Part shown: positions 28,570 to 34,642 of the stretch, in pieces
Numbering within the stretch: position 1 is the first letter of the stretch
How the letters are laid out: every line of letters starts with the position of its first letter
Assembly (NCBI GenBank): GCA_902763655.1
Contig: CACWSW010000046.1
Span: forward strand, 1 to 34,642
Direction of reading: 5' to 3'
Length of the DNA stretch: 34,642 nt
Source of the DNA: an uncultured bacterium
Lineage (GTDB): Bacteria; Verrucomicrobiota; Kiritimatiellia; RFP12; UBA1067
Notes under the pieces: model-generated
Databases searched by the model: none
What the model was told of the DNA's origin: nothing
The model's input: only the letters and a program-made list of their open reading frames with translations
Program-made: the position numbers and the translations under genes

Positions 28570-29327
28570 AGACGCGTCTCGACCAGATGCTCGTAGCCCG
28601 CTCCCTCGCCGCATCGCGGACGGTGGCGCAGGCGCTGATACTCGAAGGCAAGGTGCGCGTGGGCGGCCAGACCGAGACAAAGGCCGGCCGCATGGTGACG
28701 GATGACGCCGAGATCGAGGTGGAGGCTCCGCCGCGCTTCGTCTCGCGCGGCGGAGAGAAGCTGGAGGGTGCGTTCGTAGCATTCCCTGGCTGGACGGTGG
28801 ACGGACTGGTCTGCCTCGACGTGGGGAGCTCCACGGGCGGCTTCACGGACTGCCTCCTGCAGCACGGCGCCATGCGCGTGATGGCAGTGGACGTCGGCAC
28901 GAACCAGCTCGCGTGGAAGCTCCGCGCAGACCCGCGCGTATGGGCGCGCGAGAACTTCAACGCGAGATACATGACCGCCGCAGACCTCCCCGAACGCCCC
29001 GCGCGCGCGGTTACGGACGTGAGCTTCATCTCGCTCACGCTCATCCTGCCGCCGATGGCGGAGGTGCTTCTGCCCGGCGGCGAGATAGTCTCCCTCATCA
29101 AGCCGCAGTTCGAGGCCGGGAGGGGACAGGCCCCTGGCGGCGTCGTGACGGATCCGGCAGTTCGCGCGCGCGTTGTGGACGACATCTCGAGATTCGGCAC
29201 GCAGAAGCTCGGACTGGACCTGCTCGGCGTGGCGGAGTCGCCATTGCGCGGACGCGACAAGGGCAACATCGAATACCTCGCCTGGTGGCGCAAGCCTCTC
29301 GCGCAAGAGACCGATAATGTGATATAA
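28566..29327 (+). CDS. tlyA: TlyA-family rRNA 2'-O-methyltransferase
   Basis: 253 residues from the GTG at 28566, which overlaps the previous stop; the product starts VKTRLDQMLVARSLA, the standard TlyA S4 domain beginning. S4 RNA-binding domain at 1-60, then a FtsJ-like Rossmann methyltransferase with SAM motif CLDVGSSTGGFTD, VDVG, TDVSFIS and IKPQFE. TlyA methylates 16S and/or 23S rRNA (C1409/C1920 in mycobacteria) and affects capreomycin sensitivity; the haemolysin name is historical. Its last codons contain the -10 element of the next gene. Confidence 0.94.
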   Translation: MKTRLDQMLVARSLAASRTVAQALILEGKVRVGGQTETKAGRMVTDDAEIEVEAPPRFVSRGGEKLEGAFVAFPGWTVDGLVCLDVGSSTGGFTDCLLQHGAMRVMAVDVGTNQLAWKLRADPRVWARENFNARYMTAADLPERPARAVTDVSFISLTLILPPMAEVLLPGGEIVSLIKPQFEAGRGQAPGGVVTDPAVRARVVDDISRFGTQKLGLDLLGVAESPLRGRDKGNIEYLAWWRKPLAQETDNVI

Positions 29328-29328
29328 T
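29320..29328 (+). promoter_or_regulatory. Extended -10 promoter inside the tlyA stop region
   Basis: TGATATAAT, with perfect TATAAT at 29323-29328 overlapping the tlyA TAA. It precedes the cytochrome gene by 32 nt; AAAGGAG serves as ribosome site. Confidence 0.55.
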
Positions 29329-29360
29329 CCTCGCATGGCACGAAAAGGAGTTCTGCTGAA

Positions 29361-31192
29361 ATGAAGAAGACGCTCGGCCTGTTGGTGGTTGTAGCCGCCG
29401 CCGCTGCAGTTTGCGGCGTGGGCAAGGCAAAGGTATCTGAGGCGCCAGCGCCCAGCTCCGGCTACGTTTCGCCGGAGTTCATCGTGGCTGCGCCTGACGG
29501 CGGCAGCGTGTACGTCACGTCTGCGACCGGCGCGCACGTGCAGAACGTCGCGCTCGACGGCAAGACATTGCGCAAGTGGAAGGTCGAATCGACCCTCGTC
29601 CCGAACACTCCCCTCAATCCGTCCGGCATCGCCCTTTCCGGCGGAAACATCTACGTCACATGCGGCGTGCAGGCTGGCGAGCTGCAGAAGTTCGCCCTTG
29701 ACGGCAAGCTCGTGAAGTCCGTCGCCGTGGGACACTCCCCCTGCTCGCCCGTCGTCTCTTCGGACGGCAAGACCGTCTTCGTGCTCAACCGTTTCGCCAA
29801 CAGGGTGAGCGTGGTCGATGCCGCAGAGATGAAGGTCGCCACCACCGTGCCCGTGCTACGCGAGCCGTTCGCCGCCGCCATTGGTGCGGGCGGCAAGCTT
29901 CTCTTCGTCGCGAACATGCTCCCGTACTGCGCCGCCACGAACGACGTTGTTGCGGCGGCCGTGAGCGTGATCGACACCGCCACGAAATCCGTGCGCAACA
30001 TGCTGCTGCCAAACGGCTCCACCGGCGTGCGCGGAGTCTGCGCATCGCCAGACGGCAAGTCGATCTACGTCACGCACACGATGGGCCGCTACCAGCTTCC
30101 GACCACGCAGCTCGAGCGCGGTTGGATGAACACCGCCGCTCTCAGCGTGTTCGACGGTGCGACGGGCGCATACGTGAACACGGTGCTGCTCGACGACGTG
30201 GACCGCGGCGGCGCCAACCCGTGGGGCGTGGCCGTGACGGCCGACGGCAAGACCCTCGTCGTCGCCCATGCCGGCACTTGCGAGCGAGCGGCATCGTCAA
30301 GAGCGCCGAGGATGTGCCGAACGATCTTGCGTTCCTCGTCTCGATCCGCCGCCGCGTCCACATGGGCGGCGATGGTCCGCGAGGCGTCGTGACCATCGGC
30401 CGCCGCGCCATCGCCGCGCTCTACTTCGCCGATGCGCTATCCATGGCCGAGCTCGACAATGCCGCCACGTCTCCCACGCTCCTGCCGGTCGGTCCAAAGA
30501 AAGACCTCGCGAAAGACCGCACACGGCGCGGCGAGATGCTCTACAACGACGGCTCCATGTGCTTCCAGCAGTGGCAGAGCTGCGCAAGCTGCCACCCGGA
30601 CGGCCGCGTGGACGGCCTCAACTGGGACCTTCTCAACGACGGGATGGGTAACCCCAAGCAGACGAAGAACGAGCTCTACACGCAGTGGACCCCCCCCACG
30701 ATGGTCACCGGCATCCGCAAGGACATGCACGAGTGCAACCGCGCCGGACTCATCCACATCCAGTTCGTCACGCGCCCAGAGGAGGACGTGCACTGCTTCG
30801 ACGCCTACGTCACGGCGATGAAGCCCGTCCCCAGCCCCTACCTCGTGAACGGCCAGCTCTCCGAACGCGCAAAGCGCGGCGAGACGCTCTTCAAGAAGGC
30901 GAAGTGCGCCGACTGCCACACCACAGACTCCAAGGGTCCGAACGGCGAGCATCTGTGGACCGACCGCAAGGCATACGACGTTGGCGTCGGCACGGGCACG
31001 GAGGCAGGAAAGAAGTTCGACACGCCCACCCTCGCCGAAGTCTGGCGTACCGCCCCATACCTCTACGACGGTCGTGCCCTCACGATGGAAGAGGTGCTTA
31101 CCGTCGCCAATCCCAAGGACGCACACGGCGAGACGAGCAAGCTCTCGCCCGAAGAGATCAAGGACCTCGCCGAGTACGTCCTCTCGCTCTGA
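29361..31192 (+). pseudogene. Beta-propeller/di-heme cytochrome c protein, interrupted by frameshift
   Basis: A signal peptide (MKKTLGLLVVVAAAAAVCG) leads into a YVTN-like beta-propeller with repeats such as PDGGSVYVTSATG, SDGKTVFVLNRFANRVSVVD, PDGKSIYVTHTMGRY and ADGKTLVVAHAGTCE, in one frame to about 30280. From about 30290 the protein continues in another frame: SGIVKSAEDVPNDLAFL, then two c-type heme sites CASCH (30581-30595) and CADCH (30905-30919), ending at TGA 31190-31192. The junction sequence GCGAGCGAGCGGC is a short tandem repeat. About 20 codons seem to be missing. Intact relatives are periplasmic MauG/cytochrome peroxidase-like proteins. The heme part alone would lack a signal peptide. 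Either a true lesion or an assembly or base-call error. Confidence 0.8.
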
Positions 31193-31220
31193 CGACAGGA
31201 GATGCAGCAGAGCGTCTCGA

Positions 31221-31241
31221 TGGAGGTGCACAAACCCTCCA
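31221..31241 (+). terminator. Weak hairpin after the cytochrome gene
   Basis: TGGAGG, 9-nt loop, CCTCCA, 28 nt after the stop. The T run (ACTTTTTTAG) starts only 14 nt later, so an intrinsic terminator is doubtful. Confidence 0.3.
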
Positions 31242-31382
31242 AAGACAGCGTATACTTTTTTAGACTATTCTACGCGTCGTGATTATACAGTATTATATTG
31301 ACACAACTCGCTCTTTAGCTTAATCGAATAACATTCTGCTCTCTTGCCGCCTTTTTGCAACTTTGGCAACTGCCGATTTCAT

Positions 31383-31398
31383 TGGCACATGTGATGCT
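31383..31398 (+). promoter_or_regulatory. Sigma-54 (-24/-12) promoter upstream of the small membrane protein and ykvA-1
   Basis: TGGCAC-ATGTG-ATGCT, with exact GG-N10-GC spacing. The longer form ATTGGCACA-N4-ATGCT is the same as at 34381-34397. The ATG at 31460 lies 62 nt downstream, so the leader is about 50 nt. Only the T to A change at the start of the -12 box departs from the consensus TTGCT. Confidence 0.8.
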
Positions 31399-31459
31399 TT
31401 CAAAGGCTCATCTCGACAATCGGCGGAACCATAGGTGACACGAAAAAGGAGAGCAAAAC

Positions 31460-31816
31460 ATGAAGAAGTTTCTCAAGCGTTGCATACTGGAAATAACGGA
31501 AACAGTTTCTGTGATGTTATCCGTGCTTGCGTACCTTGCCATTGCTTTACTCATATGCGGATTCTTCAATTGGGGGCAGGCAGGGTTTATGGTGGTGCTC
31601 ATGACGTTGTCCGGTCCGTGCATTGAGGCATTTATGTCAATCACCGACTACTTCTACAGGCTCAAGTGCAGGTGGGGCTGTTTCTATTCGTGAGCGGGCG
31701 CGATCCTATTCTTTGCCATCTACATCCTGTCGGACATCTTTGGCATACACACTCATTTAGCATTTGCGCTTCGTCATGGTGGCGAGGCAGATAATAAACC
31801 TAGAGAAAGATCATGA
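31460..31816 (+). pseudogene. Small multi-pass membrane protein with in-frame TGA
   Basis: AAAGGAG precedes the ATG at 31460. The first 77 codons encode two membrane segments (VMLSVLAYLAIALLICGFF; FMVVLMTLSGPCIEAFMSI) and end GCFYS at a TGA (31691-31693). The same frame stays open for 40 more codons, with a third hydrophobic segment (AGAILFFAIYILSDIFGI) and a charged tail, and ends at a TGA that overlaps the ykvA-1 ATG as ATGA. That overlap is a strong sign that the longer frame is the original gene. A TGG (Trp) to TGA change is the simplest explanation. TGA is a normal stop elsewhere in the window. I do not recognise the family. It lies directly after the sigma-54 promoter. Confidence 0.65.
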
Positions 31817-32223
31817 AAAAAAAGACCATCAACAAAGCGCAGGCCGAAGCGGTTCTGGGCGAATACGCCGACAAGGTCGGTACGGACGACGTCAACAACG
31901 TCTTGGGCAAGGAGGACGAGATCAAGAAGCTCTTCAAGCGGGTCAAGGTACTGGCAAAGTATTTAAACGACCTCTGCGAGATATTCGAGCTTCTGCGAGA
32001 CCGAGTTACTGGCAAATACAAGGGAACCCCATGGAGGACTATTGCGGCCCTCACGGGCGCGCTCATCTACTCGCTCTCTCCAATCGACCTCCTACTAGAC
32101 TTCATCCCAGGCATCGGATTCTTTGACGATGCGCTCGTGATCGGCCTTGCCATCAAGCTGGCCCAGCCCGATCTCGAGAAGTATCGCGAATGGAAGGCGA
32201 TCGGCAACGAGAAGGCGGCATGA
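31813..32223 (+). CDS. YkvA/DUF1232 membrane protein, copy 1
   Basis: 136 residues. The N-terminal 65 residues are charged and helical. The DUF1232 core starts near LRDRVTGKYKGTPWRTIAAL and includes a hydrophobic hairpin with the family motif Y-x-LSPIDLLLDFIPGIGFFDDA (about 90-112). The charged C-terminus is LEKYREWKAIGNEKAA. DUF1232 proteins are small inner-membrane proteins of unknown function. The start overlaps the stop of the preceding frame as ATGA, so expression should depend on the sigma-54 promoter at 31383. It ends 17 nt from the convergent copy 2. Confidence 0.88.
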   Translation: MKKKTINKAQAEAVLGEYADKVGTDDVNNVLGKEDEIKKLFKRVKVLAKYLNDLCEIFELLRDRVTGKYKGTPWRTIAALTGALIYSLSPIDLLLDFIPGIGFFDDALVIGLAIKLAQPDLEKYREWKAIGNEKAA

Positions 32224-32240
32224 AAGCCGGACGACTACGC

Positions 32241-32615
32241 CTAGGTGTCGGAATTCTTGAGGTTCTTGTACTTCTTGAACTCGTCTGCGCAACGCGCGAA
32301 TATCCAGCCGAGAACAATCGCATCGTCTACCCATCCGGCCACTGGAATCACGTCTGGCATGAGGTCGATTGGCAGGGCCAGATAGGCGAGACCGCCCGCC
32401 AGGAGCGCCAAAGTGGATCTCGACACGCCTTTGTACTTGCCGGTCACGGAGTCGGAAACCATGTCATAGGCGGTACGGATGTTGTCTAGCAGGCCGGCGA
32501 GAACCGAAACATCGTTGATTTTATTGAGAGTGGCGCCCTTCGTCTTGTCGACATCTTCCGGCTTTGCGTCCTTCACGTAGGACTGGTATGAGTTAATGAT
32601 CTTGTCGATATCCAT
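32241..32615 (-). CDS. YkvA/DUF1232 membrane protein, copy 2
   Basis: 124 residues. The N-terminus MDIDKIINSYQSYVKD is closely related to copy 3 (MNPDDIINSYKEKFKQ). The central VTGKYKGVSRSTLALLAGG and the motif YLALPIDLMPDVIPVAGWVDDA are shared with copy 1. The ribosome site is CAGGAA. It lies 31 nt downstream of the RtcR-like activator on the same strand and is probably co-transcribed with it; no separate sigma-54 promoter is visible before it. That would give a basal level of one YkvA without sigma-54. Confidence 0.88.
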   Translation of the reverse strand: MDIDKIINSYQSYVKDAKPEDVDKTKGATLNKINDVSVLAGLLDNIRTAYDMVSDSVTGKYKGVSRSTLALLAGGLAYLALPIDLMPDVIPVAGWVDDAIVLGWIFARCADEFKKYKNLKNSDT

Positions 32616-32646
32616 GGCAATTCCTGTTCATTTCCACATGACACCC

Positions 32647-34263
32647 TCAGCGGACGACCGGATTGGTTGTCTTCGGCTTCAGATGACCTGGCGCATCCAC
32701 GTCGAATATCAACCCCCATCGCGCGAGATACTTGCCAAAGGCGTCTGAATAGTTGCTCTTCGGCTCGTTCTCGTAGAACGCCCGTCCGGCATCGGCACAC
32801 GAACGCGCCCCTTGGCAGGCGTTGAACATGCGGTCGATCTGCGGGTGTTCGCGCGGAGGGGCGCCTGCCTTGATTTGCTCAGCGAGAGACGAGCCTTCCG
32901 CATCGGATATACGCTTGCCAGTGCAGAAGAAGAGCTCCAAGAGAGCCTCCTTCATGGCACGGCATGAAACCACCTTGCCGATATTCGCCTCCAGCAAGCC
33001 GACCTTCAGGTGCGCGAAGAGCCTCCTGACGTCACGGAAGTTCTCCGGCCAGGCATAGGAGTATGCGAACTGCCTGAACGCCTCGTAAGCGCTGCGCGTG
33101 AGCACCAAGTCGTGATCCGAACAGAACCACCTGACGATCCCCTCAAAGACCTGCTCCCGCTGATTCACGTTGTCCTTGCCCAGGCGTACCCGCAAGGGCG
33201 GCAATTCAATGTGACAGGAGTTGATGCGATATAGCAGATCCTTCCTGAATCCTCGCACCCCTTTCGAATCTTCCCATTCCTTCGCTGCGACGGCAATGTC
33301 GCGGTTAGTTCCAAAGACGATACGGCATTCTACCTTGTAGAGCTTTCGATTCTTCCCCGTGTCGCCAACCCGGTAGTAGACTTTCTCCTCGAGTGCCGTC
33401 AGCAGCTTGCCCTGGGTCTCGAGCGGCATGTCGCCAACCTCGTCCAGAAACAATATGCCACGCCCCGCACTCGCAATCAGACCTTCCACGTTCCCCCGTC
33501 GCCCGGTATAGGCGCCATCGACCGCGCCAAACAGCAAGACATCCGCCAGCTCTGGGGAAAGAGACGCGCAGTTCCCATGCAGATAACCATAGTCGTCGCG
33601 CATCCGTTCCGCAAGGGACGCCTCCTTGAACTCTTTCTTGCGGTCGTCGTATTCGGATGTGCAGAGTCGGGGGAGATTTCTGGCGATGAAGGATTTGCCC
33701 GTCCCTGTCTCGCCAGTGATCAGCACGTATTGCGGCACGCCTGGCTCACCCTGATGCGAGAGGATCGTCCGGACATGCTCGAGCTGTTCCTCGACAGGGT
33801 ACAGGCCCAGCAGGAAATACTTGGTCCAACGAGCCGAGCCGAGACTGATCCCAAGGTCCTCATACGACGTCCCAGCCGGCAGCGGCAACATCTCGTTGGC
33901 GTAACGATAGCACTTGGGAATCGCATCAAGGCACGTTGGCAAGGGGAACGCGTCAGGGACAATGTAAACCATGCTGTTCCCATACTGCAAAAGGACATCC
34001 TCCAGCTTCGACACATCCACCTGCCGGAAATTCTCCCCCCGTAACCGATACTCGCGTCTTTCAAGCTCGCTCCTGATCGTACCGACCGCCTCCACCGAGC
34101 GAGGGTCGCTCCCGTCATATACCGCAAGCATCCTCGTGCAGCCATAGTCATCCGCGACATCAAATACACTCTTGAAGCCACCTCCGCCCCGCAGATGAAA
34201 CTCGGAAACAGTGTCTCGGCAGAGCCAAACCAGCAAATCCTCTCCTGTCACTTCGTTGCTCAT
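32647..34263 (-). CDS. RtcR-like sigma-54-dependent transcriptional activator
   Basis: 538 residues. The N-terminal sensor (1-150) is a Rossmann-like alpha/beta domain (MLAVYDGSDPRSVEAVGTI; SMVYIVPDAF), possibly the CARF type found in RtcR. The AAA+ module has Walker A GETGTGKS (184-191), the sigma-54-contacting loop GAYTG (250-254, Phe to Tyr), Walker B FLDEVGD (Asp274, Glu275), sensor I GTNRD, arginine-finger segment FRKDLLYRI and sensor II WPENFRDVRRL. The C-terminus (RSCADAGRAFYEN, then NYSDAFGKYLARWGL) resembles the RtcR end and is not a usual Fis helix-turn-helix. RtcR in E. coli switches on rtcBA RNA repair. Here the neighbours are YkvA proteins and two sigma-54 promoters. All ATPase motifs look functional. 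The start lies directly beside a palindrome; no ribosome site. Confidence 0.85.
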   Translation of the reverse strand: MSNEVTGEDLLVWLCRDTVSEFHLRGGGGFKSVFDVADDYGCTRMLAVYDGSDPRSVEAVGTIRSELERREYRLRGENFRQVDVSKLEDVLLQYGNSMVYIVPDAFPLPTCLDAIPKCYRYANEMLPLPAGTSYEDLGISLGSARWTKYFLLGLYPVEEQLEHVRTILSHQGEPGVPQYVLITGETGTGKSFIARNLPRLCTSEYDDRKKEFKEASLAERMRDDYGYLHGNCASLSPELADVLLFGAVDGAYTGRRGNVEGLIASAGRGILFLDEVGDMPLETQGKLLTALEEKVYYRVGDTGKNRKLYKVECRIVFGTNRDIAVAAKEWEDSKGVRGFRKDLLYRINSCHIELPPLRVRLGKDNVNQREQVFEGIVRWFCSDHDLVLTRSAYEAFRQFAYSYAWPENFRDVRRLFAHLKVGLLEANIGKVVSCRAMKEALLELFFCTGKRISDAEGSSLAEQIKAGAPPREHPQIDRMFNACQGARSCADAGRAFYENEPKSNYSDAFGKYLARWGLIFDVDAPGHLKPKTTNPVVR

Positions 34264-34277
34264 ATAGAAATTTCTAT
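34264..34277. promoter_or_regulatory. 14-bp perfect palindrome touching the activator start codon
   Basis: ATAGAAATTTCTAT, directly upstream of the activator ATG (34263). It occupies the place of the ribosome site and could be an operator for autoregulation or the upstream activator site for the divergent promoter at 34382. Confidence 0.5.
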
Positions 34278-34290
34278 TTTGACCAGTCGC

Positions 34291-34307
34291 ATGCTAGAGC
34301 ATAGCAT
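34291..34307 (-). promoter_or_regulatory. Dyad ATGCTA-N5-TAGCAT overlapping a possible -10 of the activator gene
   Basis: Two 6-bp arms, ATGCTA (34291-34296) and TAGCAT (34302-34307), with 5 bp between. On the minus strand TGCTATGCT here resembles the extended -10 elements seen elsewhere, about 30 nt before the activator ATG. A repressor or activator bound here could control the activator gene. Confidence 0.4.
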
Positions 34308-34381
34308 ATCCTAATGGAGTCGCGCAACCTAAAACATGACGAGAAAGGCGAATATCAATGAGAAAACGCAATATTTCACAT

Positions 34382-34397
34382 TGGCACAGGCCATGCT
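34382..34397 (+). promoter_or_regulatory. Sigma-54 (-24/-12) promoter upstream of ykvA-3
   Basis: TGGCAC-AGGCC-ATGCT with exact GG-N10-GC spacing, in the same extended form as at 31382-31398. The ykvA-3 ATG lies 24 nt downstream. It is divergent from the RtcR-like activator, whose start is 118 bp away, a common arrangement for an activator and its target. Confidence 0.82.
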
Positions 34398-34421
34398 ACC
34401 TAAATGCGCGAGGTCCATGAA

Positions 34422-34642
34422 ATGAATCCAGACGACATCATAAACAGCTACAAAGAGAAGTTCAAGCAACCGCCTTCCTTGGAATCGGTTGAAAGCGAAC
34501 GGGAAGAGACTCTTAAGAAGATCTCCAACGCACAGGTGCTTACCACGCTCAAGGACCATATCGCTGTGGCATACCAAATCTTAGCGGACGTCTCGCGAGG
34601 AAAGCGCAAGGTGCCCGCATCAAAGGTCGCGTTGCTGGTGGG
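34422..34642 (+). CDS. YkvA/DUF1232 membrane protein, copy 3 (3' end outside window)
   Basis: The frame from the ATG at 34422 is open to the end of the window (73 complete codons). The start MNPDDIINSYKEKFKQ and the later KKISNAQVLTTLKDHIAVAYQIL align with copy 2 (MDIDKIINSYQSYVKD, NKINDVSVLAGLLDNIRTAY), and VPASKVALLVG corresponds to the beginning of the DUF1232 hydrophobic core. The PIDL/DD motif lies beyond the window. The weak ribosome site is GAGG. It follows a sigma-54 promoter by 24 nt. Confidence 0.78.
   Translation, partial: MNPDDIINSYKEKFKQPPSLESVESEREETLKKISNAQVLTTLKDHIAVAYQILADVSRGKRKVPASKVALLV

Follow-up and report, generated by a model that had tools for sequence, protein, structure and literature searches.

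Gene organization of the locus

The last 3.3 kb of a 34,642-base contig from an uncultured bacterium (CACWSW010000046.1, G000:C46 in our numbering; the whole stretch is hereafter called the window) carry five genes, named here S, A, B, the activator gene and C. They encode a small hydrophobic protein (S), three members of the DUF1232 family, also known as YkvA (A, B and C), and a sigma-54 activator whose N-terminal domain is predicted to be CARF-like. An earlier note on this DNA had read the activator as RtcR-like, flanked by three paralogous DUF1232 genes and two sigma-54 promoters, and had proposed that it switches on the YkvA proteins upon an RNA-damage or nucleotide signal, these proteins altering the membrane, perhaps for dormancy or phage defence. 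The genes, domains and promoters are the following.

31383..31398, + strand: sigma-54 -24/-12 promoter of the S-A operon, TGGCACATGTGATGCT (consensus scan)
31460..31693, + strand: S, 77-residue hydrophobic, predicted membrane protein, with a homologue in the related locus L025
31813..32223, + strand: A, DUF1232 protein of 136 residues (PF06803, 42.5 bits; 76-81% identity in five relatives)
32241..32615, - strand: B, DUF1232 protein of 124 residues (PF06803, 49.8 bits), 31 bp downstream of the activator gene on the same strand
32647..34263, - strand: sigma-54 activator of 538 residues with a predicted CARF-like N-terminal domain
33205..33732, - strand: AAA+ sigma-54 interaction domain of the activator, residues 178-353 (PF00158, E=1.3e-34)
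33829..34263, - strand: predicted CARF-like sensor domain of the activator, residues 1-145 (model with pLDDT 85, structural matches)
34382..34397, + strand: sigma-54 promoter of C, TGGCACAGGCCATGCT (consensus scan; position across relatives)
34422..34642, + strand: C, third DUF1232-family gene, product starting MNPDDIINSY, with orthologues in seven relatives

The Pfam cut-off for PF06803 (DUF1232) is 23 bits, which A and B exceed. C is truncated by the end of the contig ahead of its DUF1232 core and consequently has no PF06803 score in the window; the C genes of seven relatives exceed the cut-off, so that the three paralogous DUF1232 genes of the earlier note hold. S has no Pfam match; it was considered as a gene broken by an in-frame stop, a candidate abandoned since its L025 homologue is nearly equal in length (79 versus 77 residues). 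The products are predicted to be located in the membrane, as judged by hydropathy only.

An intact sigma-54 activator that is not RtcR

The activator is an intact sigma-54 enhancer-binding protein (Sigma54_activat, Pfam), displaying the Walker A motif GETGTGKS, GAYTG in the L1 loop and the Walker B motif FLDEVGD, all of them as first read. The usual L1 motif is GAFTGA, of which GAYTG is a variant. The key AAA+ residues of enhancer-binding proteins are invariant among 55 aligned family members, and so are the arginine fingers R340 and R346. The rpoN gene, on whose presence the earlier proposal depended, is found in the same genome (G000:C217, 113 bits).

The likeness to RtcR is limited to the ATPase and C-terminal parts, for which the earlier label remains apt. 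Judged by its sequence, the protein itself is not RtcR, because the NCBIfam RtcR model NF038308 gives 160 bits for a cut-off of 650, covering residues 180-520 only, and because no match to rtcB (PF01139) was found in its genome, a metagenome-assembled genome (MAG) that is 91.6% complete (rtcA was not searched for). Its best PADLOC match, RtcR_PspF (136 bits), likewise concerns only the AAA part (residues 180-419). This genome encodes a separate RtcR homologue (L027 5319-6950, G000:C144), divergent from a gene read by eye as SPFH/band-7-like. A distant relative of the activator (L034 4560-6275, G011:C158; 29% identity) lies near a TerB-like gene (PF05099, 21.1 bits, below the cut-off of 24.4). 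A 396-residue protein joining the AAA part of the activator to a B-like DUF1232 protein (P0059) was not used as main evidence, since it comes from a single contig of 2.4 kb, has no C-terminus and could be an artefact of assembly.

A predicted CARF-like N-terminal domain

The AlphaFold2 model predicts that the N-terminal domain forms a six-stranded Rossmann-like core (strands at residues 9-14, 44-49, 79-83, 98-102, 117-121 and 124-128) with a hairpin of strands 5 and 6, the arrangement that defines CARF in the excerpted text of PMC4012209. When this domain was folded alone, the 23 top-ranked PDB matches of VIA-align were all CARF proteins (Can2, Csm6, Csa3, Card1, Cam1). No RtcR structure is among the VIA-align matches listed, which excludes nothing. 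A structural search with the full-length model was set aside as evidence on the sensor, as AAA+ domains filled its matches. Two residues, R16 and K117, are invariant in this conserved domain. A database search with the sensor only, limited to shared words, retained 5 proteins of 886 candidates, all of the activator family.

Several results weigh against this fold assignment, and with it against the interpretation of the module proposed below. The VIA-align matches ranked 13 to 23 differ by no more than 1 Z unit from the best match outside CARF and are therefore tied with unrelated folds. Foldseek gave no match at E <=0.001 with the N-terminal model, Cam1 and Csm6 ranking fourth and eleventh among unrelated folds. 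No CARF profile of Pfam, NCBIfam or PADLOC matches the N-terminus, and hhalign gives its profile a probability of 0.2% against eight RtcR N-termini, which form a shallow profile. Furthermore, the S/T usual in CARF domains after strand 1 and the K/R usual after strand 4 are here R16 and D104; according to the same excerpt of PMC4012209, the strand-1 S/T is frequent but not universal and the strand-4 K/R is mostly missing in RtcR. Globally, the N-terminus is predicted to be CARF-like by its fold, without detectable sequence relation to RtcR. The relation of the N-terminus to CARF or RtcR, on which the earlier proposal depended, is found with CARF at the level of predicted fold and is not found in sequence with RtcR.

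Conservation and distribution

The activator was found (E <=1e-30) in 11 of the 16 genomes examined of its genus, being read in two frames in G011, and in 4 of 387 genomes drawn from the phylum, all four of the same genus. None of 43 relatives from outside the genus reaches E 1e-30. All activator copies found in the examined genomes therefore belong to one genus. Five named records contain a long match of at least 50% identity (L029-L033): two are labelled Kiritimatiellae (roe deer omasum and sheep rectum), one is an uncultured Lentisphaerae and two are 'uncultured bacterium' RUG, a label which we take to denote a rumen series. Some bacteria of the genus come from the guts of ruminants.

Ten orthologous loci were mapped (L017-L026), making 11 with the window. 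B comes directly after the activator, in the same orientation, in all 10 testable loci, window included (L020 stops at a contig edge), and the gap between the two genes is 16-31 bp in the nine loci measured (L026 left out). C is divergent from the activator in 8 of the 11 loci, including the window; it is missing from L022 and L023, and in L026 its position falls beyond the contig. A is convergent in the window, L021, L025 and L026, often with other short hydrophobic proteins, and is also found on activator-free contigs in L147 (G006) and L148 (G004), two genomes that hold the activator elsewhere. The linkage between activator and DUF1232 genes that had been expected in relatives is thus conserved, within the genus.

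The activator, B and A are under purifying selection, because the nonsynonymous divergence (dN) is well under the synonymous divergence (dS): 0.23-0.26 versus 1.5-1.8 for the activator, 0.18 versus 1.1 for B (with one comparison whose dS is saturated) and 0.12-0.13 versus 0.73-0.74 for A, two pairs having been compared in each case. Compared with the window, the sensor of the relatives shows a local identity of 27-56%, the AAA+ domain 64-75%, B 70-80%, A 76-81% and the portion of C inside the window 64-77%. The sensor is thus the most divergent part and the DUF1232 proteins (64-81%) are among the least, which fits a changing signal and an unchanged response.

DUF1232/YkvA proteins are present in 124 of the 387 sampled genomes, and 18 of 20 other DUF1232 loci taken in the phylum as a control are devoid of any enhancer-binding gene in the stretch examined, the remaining two belonging to a second, different activator. 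This result of the control is what would be expected if the genes of the window were neighbours with unrelated roles and the DUF1232 proteins served housekeeping functions; given the conserved gene order and the operators shared even with unlinked copies, described below, this explanation is highly improbable.

Some side observations concern other genes found near DUF1232 genes. A NERD-domain helicase (PF08378) stands beside the A operon in four of its six places (L021, L026, L147 and L148); that of L147 matches RTasNERD-Hel of PADLOC (111.7 bits) and the other three were recognized by the same sequence start only. It was not seen in the mapped part of the window (29,000-34,642). The second sigma-54 activator, which has another N-terminus, lies near another DUF1232 gene in L149 and L150 (G006, G013) and in L163 and L165 (G032, G362). 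It matches RtcR_PspF2 of PADLOC (305 bits over residues 197-498 in L149), and its loci carry strong sigma-54 promoters without the 18-bp operator described below, an independent pairing of activator and DUF1232. An FtsW-like gene is found nearby in L149 and L150 (PF01098, below the cut-off in L149).

Sigma-54 promoters

The consensus scan (threshold 18.5) found six sites in the window, versus a mean of 4.0 after shuffling, so that the sites alone are not significant; the genome contains 25 TGGCAYN6TGCT sites versus 36 for the reversed control pattern. Both promoters of the window have the exact -24/-12 spacing. They are considered to be above chance because of their position across relatives and of the shared operator, and it is on these grounds that the two promoters first reported are retained. 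Indeed, a site of at least 18.5 precedes A in all six places and C in six of the eight loci that hold C, the exceptions being L019 and L024.

No site reaching the threshold points at B, the weaker ones (17.5) lying inside the activator gene. As B also is in an apparent operon with the activator, the role of a constitutive partner is more likely for it than that of an output of the system.

A shared 18-bp operator

The regions upstream of 13 promoters (five of C, five of A operons and three of other short genes at the equivalent position in L018, L019 and L024) were searched over 150-200 nt by expectation-maximization (EM) for a palindrome, its position being left unconstrained. Distances are counted from the first base of the promoter. 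The search returned an 18-bp palindrome, rATATa-n6-tATATy. When each promoter was left out in turn, the best site was centred at -91 to -94 in seven of the eight operon-type promoters, two of which are on contigs without the activator; the exception is L024 (-123), and the site of L019 is weak (1.6 bits when left out). The five C promoters have the operator between -104 and -114 and another site 31-32 bp closer. The log-likelihood is 57.2, and none of 40 Markov-resampled nulls exceeds 39.1; seven sites fall in one 4-nt position class versus at most four in the nulls, the real set having been run with 20 starts and 35 rounds and the nulls with 8 starts and 25 rounds. The ungapped identity between the upstream regions is only 22-51%. 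The sites of the two promoters of the window are given below.

31249..31266, + strand: weak second S-A operator, 5.8 bits, 33 bp upstream of the main one, centre -125 (position weight matrix scan)
31282..31299, + strand: main S-A operator, or upstream activating sequence (UAS), ATTATACAGTATTATATT, centre -92; 12.5 bits, or 10.1 if excluded from training (EM and leave-one-out)
34261..34278, + strand: distal operator of the C promoter (centre -112), CATATAGAAATTTCTATT, 17.5 bits, reaching the start codon of the activator
34293..34310, + strand: second site of the pair, GCTAGAGCATAGCATATC, 8.4 bits; spacing to the distal one 32 bp

The held-out promoter L026_4133 has an operator at -92 (13.6 bits), and eight other sigma-54 promoters, seven in loci of a different activator and one before a DUF1232 gene without activator seen, score at most 1.1 bits. 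Among 433,171 bases scanned, 24 sites reach 10 bits; three of them (L028, L152 and L176) are away from module promoters and activator starts, and the other 21 are mostly training sites, those of L023, L026 and a near-copy in L021 being outside the training set. Of the 25 TGGCAYN6TGCT sites of the genome, four are accompanied within 200 nt by an operator scoring more than 5 bits: those of S-A and C and two others with 12.4 bits each (L185 at -80 and L201 at -147), which have no convincing target. A 44-residue frame is the only one directly after the sigma-54-like site in L185 (G000:C24:24607), a possible further target.

In 8 of the 11 loci, among them L022 and L023, which are devoid of C, an operator pair (at least 5 bits each) also lies about -6 and -38 from the activator ATG, the positions in L018 being -9 and -41. 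In the window, this pair both overlaps the activator start and precedes the divergent C. At the starts of six other activators, the best score is 6.6 bits (L163, L165).

The palindrome is thus a likely binding site of the activator, as far as sequence can tell, and the shared operator is a new element of the module. Because these operators tie the activator to DUF1232 promoters, the regulatory part is stronger than earlier proposed. Switching on of YkvA proteins by the activator accordingly gains support for A and C, whose promoters carry the operator; B, more likely a partner, is a less likely target.

Proposed mechanism and alternative explanations

The interpretation that we consider reasonably probable is that of a conserved module in which a sigma-54 activator with a CARF-like sensor regulates itself and, through shared operators, induces small proteins predicted to lie in the membrane. 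Its basis, read from the sequences, is that the activator is intact, the order of the genes is conserved, sigma-54 promoters are present and the promoters share an operator at fixed spacing, unlinked A copies included. A ligand arising from infection or RNA damage would bind the sensor and free the ATPase. The proteins S, A and C, with the short hydrophobic ones that accompany them, would then be induced through the shared operators and might alter or shield the inner membrane. Self-repression of the PspF kind would act through the pair of operators at the activator start, and B, made from the transcript of the activator, may be a membrane partner that restrains or anchors it.

The balance has another side. 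The effect on the membrane is a guess, no function of DUF1232 having been found. L022 and L023 have the activator, B and operators but neither C, A nor a clear sigma-54 target, and the C genes of L019 and L024 have neither a strong sigma-54 site nor the operator pair. In L018, the operator-bearing promoter leads to a 93-residue protein that is neither A nor hydrophobic. In an ungapped conservation profile, the 12 best windows are at the promoter and the operator is not singled out. Lastly, MAGs are incomplete.

Among the closest known systems, the Psp system shares with the module a sigma-54 activator, a target with two UAS (pspA), a further promoter elsewhere (pspG, with one UAS), self-repression through an enhancer (PspF turns down its own gene by way of the pspA enhancer, according to excerpts of PMC3709507; here the same is presumed) and membrane-acting products, here predicted ones. 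It differs in that the present activator has an N-terminal sensor of about 145 residues and other product families. An envelope-stress switch of this kind, in which B would hold the activator at the membrane until lost membrane integrity releases it and the CARF-like domain would only dock proteins, is a tentative and somewhat unlikely alternative. The layout of the operators, the linkage of B in all testable loci and its conservation well above that of the sensor agree with it, as does the binding of RtcA and RtcB to the CARF domain of RtcR (excerpt of PMC9650030). However, PspF is described in the excerpt of PMC4012209 as only AAA and helix-turn-helix (HTH), while the activator has a conserved N-terminal domain with the invariant R16 and K117, and no PspA match was obtained among the five window proteins scanned.

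Another proposal is phage defence: the sensor would read oligonucleotides supplied by a type III CRISPR system or by a cyclase, and the proteins switched on in response would depolarise the membrane. The CARF-type predicted fold and the NERD helicase beside A would suit it, and Cam1, a CARF-transmembrane effector of type III CRISPR, shows that CARF signals can work via membrane pores (excerpt of PMC10808066). However, the genome of the window has no match to Csm1, Cmr2 or SMODS, 9 of the 11 activator genomes have no Cmr2 and 9 of the 11 no SMODS, so that messengers of type III CRISPR or CBASS are unlikely to be the only signal, within the limits set by the gaps of MAGs. Among the 16 genomes, Csm1 has weak matches in eight, none above the cut-off, Cmr2 exceeds it in three, one of them activator-free, and SMODS exceeds its own in two; these counts do not support either system as a general signal source. 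No copy of the activator family was found in viral contigs, the sole match being to the generic AAA part (33%), and the idea of a phage-borne module was dropped. As a whole, phage defence in this form is quite unlikely.

The preferred interpretation, that of a CARF-like activator driving small predicted membrane proteins, can also be pushed further. The module would then be a CARF immune sensor acting by transcription, in which an alarm nucleotide frees a self-limiting sigma-54 switch and DUF1232 hairpin paralogues depolarise or seal the inner membrane. This version is unlikely, if conceivable. It would differ from Cam1, a single fused protein on which the ligand acts directly, in that the link would pass through transcription and that most activator genomes have no type III match above the cut-off.

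Relation to known CARF regulators

RtcR and the activator have in common a CARF-type N-terminus (here by predicted fold), a sigma-54 AAA+ domain and a C-terminal region. They differ in that the N-terminus is here unrelated by sequence, the likely targets are predicted membrane proteins and rtcB has no match. The same domain order is displayed by the RtcR_PspF regulators (CARF-AAA-HTH; PADLOC, the non-Rtc family of PMC4012209). The excerpt of that work reports RtcR-like CARF activators that have no linkage to rtc and frequently accompany restriction-modification systems; here the linkage is to DUF1232, and no restriction system was recognized in the stretch read, none having been searched for. 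RtcR homologues have also been linked to CoCoNuTs (excerpt of PMC11090510). Among the titles and abstracts listed from the open-licence literature, no paper joining a CARF activator to DUF1232 was found, nor was a functional paper on DUF1232/YkvA: in the text available, the DUF1232 papers concern plants and one YkvA paper gives the name in a gene list.

Chromosomal context

Upstream of the module, positions 29361-31192 of the window hold a coding region spread over two overlapping frames, beta-propeller/cytochrome-like by eye, which is a single 631-residue frame in L025. This common neighbour marks a shared chromosomal site of the module.

Implications

The module is real and conserved. It represents a new form of the CARF-type regulators that bind enhancers, arranged like psp and with outputs that are likely to be new. 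A family of CARF-like enhancer-binding proteins outside RNA repair and CRISPR is thereby added, and the DUF1232/YkvA proteins are placed in a setting of gene regulation whose promoters and operators are defined. If the proposed mechanism is true, CARF signals would drive a membrane response by transcription, joining phage-shock logic to CRISPR-type sensing. If the immune version is true, the module would do in two steps, and with amplification, what Cam1 does as a one-piece pore, and would provide a first function for DUF1232.
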